This document shows positions 55,577 to 56,693 of a stretch of DNA of 64,000 nucleotides, piece by piece. Source of the DNA: Rhizoclosmatium globosum (taxonomy: Eukaryota > Chytridiomycota > Chytridiomycetes > Chytridiales > Chytriomycetaceae); contig MCGO01000054.1 of assembly GCA_002104985.1 (NCBI GenBank), forward strand, positions 223,975 through 287,974, read 5' to 3'. Position 1 is the stretch's first letter; each line of letters opens with the position of its first letter. The notes beneath the pieces were generated by a model. That model was given only the letters and a program-made list of their open reading frames with translations. It ran no database searches and had not been told where the DNA came from. A program made the position numbers and the translations under genes.

Positions 55577-56693
55577 ATGGCAAGAACCGCACAGACTGCA
55601 AGACGGAGCACTGGAGGCAAAGCTCCAAGAAAGAGGATTGAAACAAAAGCAATCAAAACAGCAGCAAAGAAGCGTGGCCCAAGGAATCCTGGAGACTCTG
55701 CAGTCACAGGACCTCGGGGAGATATCATATCTCAAATAGTGGGTATTGCAGGGTCTGACAGCCAAGGATCCAGCTCGGTTCATCAAGGATCTATTACAGT
55801 TGCTCTTGAAGCAATGAACAGGATCATACAGTATGGCTGTGTTTCAGCAGTGGGTGATCCCCTTAACATCACATCCAACATGTCCAAAGTTCCTTTCTAT
55901 AACTTTGGAGACTTGAAAGCAGCGTTTCCGATTACCGAAAATGCGCCATTCTTGGATGGTTTGCCAGCCAACGGATTTTATGAGCGCATTGGTGTAAATG
56001 AACAAAGGGTTGTCATGGAGCAAAGTTTGGCATTTATTAGTGCAAAACAGAAACACTTGAGTTTGCATCAATGTCAGAGGTGTCTAAAGTGGAATGGACA
56101 GATTGCACTTTTGCAGGGATTGACTTTAGAAAAAAAGTGATGACAACCCTCAAGGACAAAGGAATGGTTATGGTCCATGTCATTTCTCAGACCAAGCGCA
56201 AGTAAGATACAGTTCATTTTGTTGTTGTGTTAACAGTTGTTTCAGTGGTCGTAACTCTGCCCCAACACACTCTACCATCATTGTGATTGAAGAAGATTCT
56301 ATTCTCCTGTTTCAGCCTCACTTTCTTGGGGAATCTTGGCCAAGATCCAGTGTAGGCTTACTATCAGAACTTCCAGCTCGCTGCACAAGAAACATTTATG
56401 TCACAAATGGCCATCAGTCCATCACCAATGATTGCTCCTATCATTGCTTGGATTTTATCCGGTACTATGCAGCCCTTCCAACTAACCATGGCCACCCACG
56501 ATGCCAAGCAAGAAGATATGAACGTGCTGTTGTAAAGTGTGAATATCCTCAAAAATCAAAGGCTCTATTCTGCAAATTTCAAAGTACTGATGGCTTTAAG
56601 AAAAGTTGGGATGCATTTGATGAAAGTATTGAAGAAATACTACTTGAGAAAATTGAGCAATCAGAGAACCCAAATGATCTCAATTATGAATGA
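55577..56693 (+). CDS. Protein with histone H3-tail-like N-terminus lacking K4, K9 and K27
   Basis: Three exons (55577-55993, 56041-56193 and 56238-56693) give about 340 aa. After Met the first 18 residues are [18 protein letters not shown], the H3 tail with K4 changed to A and K9 to R. K14, K18 and K23 are kept, and the K27 position is T. Beyond residue 33 nothing resembles the histone fold. The rest has ITVALEAMNRIIQYGCVSAV, VPFYNFGDLKAAF, VIEEDSILLFQPHFLG, an HCLDFIRYYAALP segment and an acidic helical end. No known domain is recognised. The likely role is docking to H3-tail readers or enzymes in the nucleus while escaping methylation, which is inference. It sits downstream of the TET/JBP-like gene on the same strand. 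Confidence 0.7.

Follow-up and report, generated by a model that had tools for sequence, protein, structure and literature searches.

The 64,000-nucleotide stretch of DNA analysed here (the window), from the genome of Rhizoclosmatium globosum, carries a gene, designated gene C, whose protein starts with a near-complete copy of the histone H3 tail followed by a body in which no histone core could be detected. In ungapped comparison with host H3 (four H3 loci of R. globosum, translated), positions 1 to 18 differ only by K4→A and K9→R, and R2, T3, R8, S10, T11, K14, R17, K18 and K23 are kept. In the same register residue 27 is T and residue 36 is N, leaving no lysine at 4, 9, 27 or 36, and the likeness to H3 is weak beyond approximately residue 28. 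This matches the residue reading given in a preliminary description of the same DNA (K4→A, K9→R, T at 27, and K14, K18 and K23 retained). As anatomy, judged by sequence comparison, H3 mimicry by this tail is well supported, and the gene C protein may be able to pass for H3 yet escape methylation. We propose, tentatively and with somewhat less than even confidence, that the H3 N-terminus serves gene C as a chromatin handle which competes for or tethers H3-tail binders, keeping the repeated block of DNA that carries the gene unsilenced.

The H3-like tail and the body of gene C

The tail likeness of gene C is not a chance artefact, a possibility that the preliminary description had raised. Under a composition model drawn from the window and scaled to the 56.9 Mb genome, at least 16 of 18 matches behind any Met are expected 1.6e-12 times in the whole genome, and the score of residues 2-40 against H3 was reached by none of 2000 shuffles. 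In a phmmer search of PDB chains, residues 1-34 of gene C matched H3 (best E 1.2e-5). Chance resemblance, in favour of which there is nothing for gene C, is effectively refuted for this gene.

Compared separately from the tail, the body is at shuffle level against the H3 core: the scores of residues 36-209, 36-140 and 210-360 were reached by 1714, 1247 and 607 of 2000 shuffles, respectively. No Pfam family was found at E up to 10 for either a 209-residue form of the protein or the deposited protein P0001, and the gene C loci are absent from the matches of a genome-wide search with the Histone family. These results agree with the earlier statement that the remainder of the protein has no histone fold, a statement that rests on sequence because the single-sequence structure model of P0001 (mean pLDDT 31.9) is too low in confidence to be used. 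A divergent H3 with an unrecognised histone fold would account for the tail and is compatible with a body lacking a usable structure model, but the missing Pfam and Histone matches, the shuffle-level score of residues 36-209 and the length of 360 aa make it highly improbable.

Among 165 candidates scored in a protein-database search with gene C, four had E values of 1 or less; only P0001 spans the body, and the other three match the tail alone (12-18% of the query). No relative of the body outside R. globosum was found in this search, and this counts against the proposed function. Among viral contigs, tblastn gave no relatives of P0001 or of a second database protein, P0002 (31 stretches matched a pattern in the P0002 search); the short pattern ART-x-QTAR with A at position 4 matched 105 stretches, assumed to be chance, and the pattern QTARR(S/T)TGGK matched none.

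P0001 (BCR33DRAFT_837334, 360 aa) is the deposited gene C protein, and it matches a 209-residue query from another gene C copy with 100% identity over the query. The gene end had previously been placed at 56193; this is contradicted by P0001, which runs into a second exon closing at 56693 (Table 1). Relative to the other gene C copies, the window copy and the copy on contig C62 carry a frame change near codon 160, so that their open frame is 187 aa. Seven of the ten copies are open through codon 209 and one is truncated by a contig end; in one of these seven (C179), exon 2 diverges from the other copies at the position of window 56621. Six of the open copies start with MART and one with MKRT (C360, MKRTAQ versus MARTAQ), and six codons vary among the seven, three with amino-acid changes (codons 2, 95 and 122) and three silent.

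The gene C copies differ too little to yield a substitution ratio, and the codons of the tail were compared with those of host H3 instead. At the 16 shared residues, 3 or 5 codons are equal, depending on the H3 gene (four H3 genes of two kinds), where 3.6 or 5.1 would be expected had every codon been redrawn according to the codon usage of the block. The tail codons are as unlike host H3 as after random redrawing, and the match therefore lies at the protein level, which favours the proposed function. The argument presupposes a donor H3 with host-like codons: either the codons have been lost while the amino acids still match, or other codons were used in the donor H3. The tail is not strictly kept: the frame is broken in two copies, among them that of the window, and a further copy is without A1. 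These defects weigh against the proposed function and, together with the three of six variable codons that change an amino acid, they would be consistent with a neutral relic, i.e. an H3 5′ end once fused to an unrelated gene and without a function of its own. Nevertheless, the amino acids have been kept although their codons resemble those of host H3 no more than randomly redrawn ones would, and elsewhere in the genome there is another start of this type with different coding (see below); such a relic is in our view quite unlikely.

A repeated block near contig ends

Gene C is found in ten copies in the genome, each of them facing a contig end that lies ~0.2 to 17 kb away; the 27 rows of the underlying genome search comprise the 10 copies, 10 host H3 genes and, for 7 of the copies, a piece in a second frame. 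Perfect TTAGGG runs terminate two of the gene C contigs, C371 (the contig of the window) and C388, and the remaining contig ends may be assembly breaks. The gene lies within a block in which the left end is followed by gene A (minus strand), 13-bp minisatellites, a 141-bp repeat with gene B, gene C and a second 141-bp repeat, after which gene D comes in some copies (Table 1). The first bases at the left end are identical and the flanks differ in the five copies listed (window, C62, C246, C35 and C384), and the right side of the block varies from copy to copy. The preliminary description had spoken of a selfish element. The repeated block, its common left end, the differing flanks and the position at contig ends are in keeping with this label; no transposase was recognised in the block, and the label thus rests on copy number, shared left end and position. 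Repetition in outward-facing copies at contig ends also speaks for a role of gene C in keeping the block unsilenced.

Table 1. Features of the repeated block in the window (positions are those of the window; a dot marks features without strand).
Feature	Position	Strand	Remarks
Block left end	47113..47200	.	copy comparison; upstream flanks then differ per copy
Minisatellite, 13-bp unit	47896..48455	.	also at 51708-52225 and 55064-55446
Gene A	48604..51613	-	~974 aa in P0005; window copy frame-broken at several points, intact copies exist
141-bp tandem repeat upstream of gene B	52694..52967	.	2 copies in window, more in some other blocks
Gene B	53790..54977	+	395 aa; upstream of gene C in 6/10 copies; P0009, P0010
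Gene C exon 1	55577..56201	+	reading frame compared with P0001; window copy frame-shifted near codon 160, intact copies exist
Gene C Met and 18-residue H3-tail copy	55577..55633	+	16/18 identical to host H3; chance expectation 1.6e-12
Gene C implied intron, 35 nt, GT...AG	56202..56236	+	predicted, window DNA compared with P0001
Gene C exon 2 including stop	56237..56693	+	open frame 56130-56693 encodes C-terminal part of P0001
Second 141-bp tandem repeat, downstream of gene C	56784..57696	.	repeat search

Minisatellites with 13- to 31-bp units (47162-47287, 51708-52225, 55064-55446 and 57711-58406) lie between the genes of the block. Some copies have gene B and its 141-bp repeat between two of these minisatellites and others do not, a pattern resembling cassette recombination at these sites. 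A gene matching RVT_1 (61148-62566, minus strand, E 1.4e-27, within 61148-63997) immediately precedes the terminal TTAGGG array of the contig, and a stretch nearly identical to this reverse transcriptase region adjoins the block left end on C35.

The gene A protein P0005 (974 aa) comprises 23 member sequences. Its database relatives are from R. globosum and R. hyalinum (4 proteins; scoring covered the 7993 candidates with the most words in common), and at least 56 matches, down to 36% identity, were found in the genome (47 of 122 candidates scored). A distant copy at L041:4129-6336 has 28% identity to P0007, and the diverged lineages represented by this locus, L047:3294-2129 and L053:1790-4903 range from 28 to 97% in protein identity, which suggests that gene A belongs to an ancient subtelomeric family with many branches in Rhizoclosmatium. 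No Pfam family matches gene A, nor does any PDB chain convincingly, the search of PDB with a four-sequence alignment giving one chain at E 0.13.

Gene B is missing at four of the ten gene C copies (twice on C246, and on C377 and C35). Its relatives are P0009 (440 aa) and P0010 of Obelidium mucronatum (45% identity over 91%). An assignment of gene B as a TET/JBP dioxygenase was considered but not adopted: Tet_JBP scored 15.2 and 14.9 bits, well short of the cut-off of 34.9, P0010 gave no match, and none of the six places returned by a genome-wide Tet_JBP search is gene B. Residues H321, D323 and H373 of an HxD...H arrangement are invariant in just the two sequences compared. Neither Pfam nor PDB identified the protein, and a structure model built with one relative (mean pLDDT 29.7) is too low in confidence to be used.

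Other H3-like starts on non-histone proteins

The pattern M-A-R/S-T-x-Q-T-A, with positions 4, 8 and 9 free, occurs at 20 places in the genome: 10 host H3 genes, 9 rather than 10 gene C copies, since the MKRT copy cannot match, and a single further site at C269:4703. The same 20 places were returned by three more patterns (longer with one mismatch, with residue 5 free, and without ATG), and reversed control patterns had no match genome-wide. The protein at this site (C269:4703-6272, or L159:204-1773) begins MARTTQTARRTTNG, again with no K at 4 or 9, which lends support to the proposed role of gene C; its longer start reads MARTTQTARRTTNGPEFIAPP and continues as a proline-rich, non-histone frame. 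The start corresponds to the first part of the tail only, K14, K18 and K23 all being absent. The locus is present as a single copy in the genome, its frame shifts at least once with no intron recognised, and no Pfam family was found for the protein. Beside it lies a C2H2-type finger frame scoring at its cut-off, with a weak OrsD match, and family searches of pieces of genes D and E and of the C269 region gave nothing above cut-off.

Composition predicts 0.03 occurrences per genome of MARTxQTA and 0.002 of MARTxQTAR. At least 9 of 18 matches to the H3 tail anywhere are expected 0.19 times per genome, and the C269 start taken alone as an H3 mimic is therefore suggestive. Chance could find some room here, for C269 by itself; set against the much lower expectations for MARTxQTAR and for gene C, and against four patterns that yield only H3 genes, gene C copies and C269, it is scarcely conceivable as a general explanation.

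Two database proteins retrieved with gene C as query also carry H3-like starts. P0002 (135 aa) combines an A4/R9 tail, with K14, K18, K23 and their neighbours kept as in gene C, with another body, for which 568 of 2000 shuffles reach the score against the H3 core. P0003 (219 aa) has an H3-like start with K4 and R9 on a basic body without recognised histone core. The same A4/R9 tail on another body favours the proposed function of gene C, although the gene C query itself favours A4/R9 and the search was biased to that extent; moreover, replacement of K9 by R also occurs in P0004, an ordinary H3.

The relation between bodies was assessed by shuffling in nine pairs in all. The scores of the C269 body against two copies of gene E of other blocks were reached by 4 and 14 of 3000 shuffles, which is no more than suggestive of a relationship. 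For gene C, the corresponding numbers out of 3000 were 82 and 281 against gene E, 1081 against C269, and 1093 and 1567 against genes A and B, respectively; for C269 against two gene A proteins they were 2961 and 1494.

Possible functions and known systems

A Met before Ala is normally removed, and the A1-R2-T3 end of H3 is bound by PHD fingers, WDR5-like proteins and LSD1-like enzymes. In the gene C protein, Met removal would expose a free A-R-T end, which could engage proteins that bind or handle the unmodified H3 tail, and positions 4 and 9 would escape methylation. The protein might then compete for or tether H3-tail binders, such that the chromatin of the block would be kept from methylation-dependent silencing and an open state favoured. 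The decoy that the preliminary description had envisaged gains from the 16/18 identity with host H3 on a body without detectable histone core, the protein-level tail, the repeated block and the second start without K4 and K9; as a function, decoy or anti-silencing activity is advanced here conditionally. Peptides with K-to-R or K-to-A replacements usually inhibit methyltransferases weakly compared with K-to-M peptides, which argues against this reading. A Pre-SET family search for a host H3K9 methyltransferase had no match, yet none of 14 controls was detected either.

H3 residues K14 to K23 serve acetyltransferases and importins, including those of the Kap123 type. The tail could accordingly be a borrowed handling signal for H3-type nuclear import, chaperone loading or acetyltransferase docking, with the loss of K4 and K9 tolerated rather than selected. 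We consider this a possibility, albeit a doubtful one, as is its corollary that the signal would direct the gene C protein into the nucleus or onto active chromatin. It is in line with the retention of K14, K18, K23 and their neighbours in gene C and P0002, these lysines being important for H3 acetylation and Kap123-type import; nevertheless, the C269 start has none of the three and also lacks K4 and K9, and import needs no match at A1-R2-T3 and T6-A7. What gene C, P0002 and C269 have in common is the stretch of positions 1-9 without both lysines, and this favours binders of the N-terminal end over import alone.

If a competing or tethering role for the gene C tail is true, a genome parasite would, through this protein of a repeated block at chromosome ends, be countering chromatin silencing directly. 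The tail would also be a natural peptide separating host proteins that need K4 or K9 from those that need the A-R-T end only. It is conceivable, though somewhat unlikely, that chytrid subtelomeric or mobile-like genes repeatedly gain free H3 N-termini that cannot be methylated at 4 and 9 and act as selfish decoys blocking silencing of chromosome ends.

Fungal transposons are described as carrying TET/JBP dioxygenases, and transposons with SET methyltransferase genes are also described, in PMC12730594, the main text of which holds no occurrence of Rhizoclosmatium or of chytrids. As the block may be, those described there are mobile DNA with genes aimed at epigenetic marks; unlike the genes they carry, gene C is not such an enzyme, and the neighbouring gene B stays below the Tet_JBP cut-off. 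The terminons of rotifer telomeres are, according to PMC6431247, large multi-gene units arrayed at telomeres. They share with the Rhizoclosmatium block the nature of multi-gene units at chromosome ends, but unlike terminons as portrayed there, the block holds genes A, B and C. No Penelope-type reverse transcriptase was identified in the unit itself, and the RVT_1 gene at 61148-62566, a separate gene, may or may not be of that type. No hammerhead ribozyme was found in the window between 46000 and 64000 in an Rfam search at E up to 0.5, in which CsrB alone gave a weak match, under its gathering score. No equivalent was recognised in the accessible parts of the open-licence literature on histone-tail mimicry by selfish or transposable elements, by fungi, or by non-histone proteins resembling the H3 tail.

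Histone mimicry is known chiefly from viruses, pathogens and host regulators. Influenza NS1 and mammalian EZHIP are histone mimics in which, as in gene C, an H3-like stretch lies in a non-histone protein, that of EZHIP being likewise unmethylatable. Their mimics are short and internal or C-terminal, whereas that of gene C is an 18-residue stretch with two exchanged lysines that forms the extreme N-terminus of the protein and precedes an orphan body, the gene lying in a fungal subtelomeric repeat. With histone H3 itself, gene C shares the first 18 residues except 4 and 9; unlike H3, it has no detectable core, extends over 360 aa and is repeated near contig ends.
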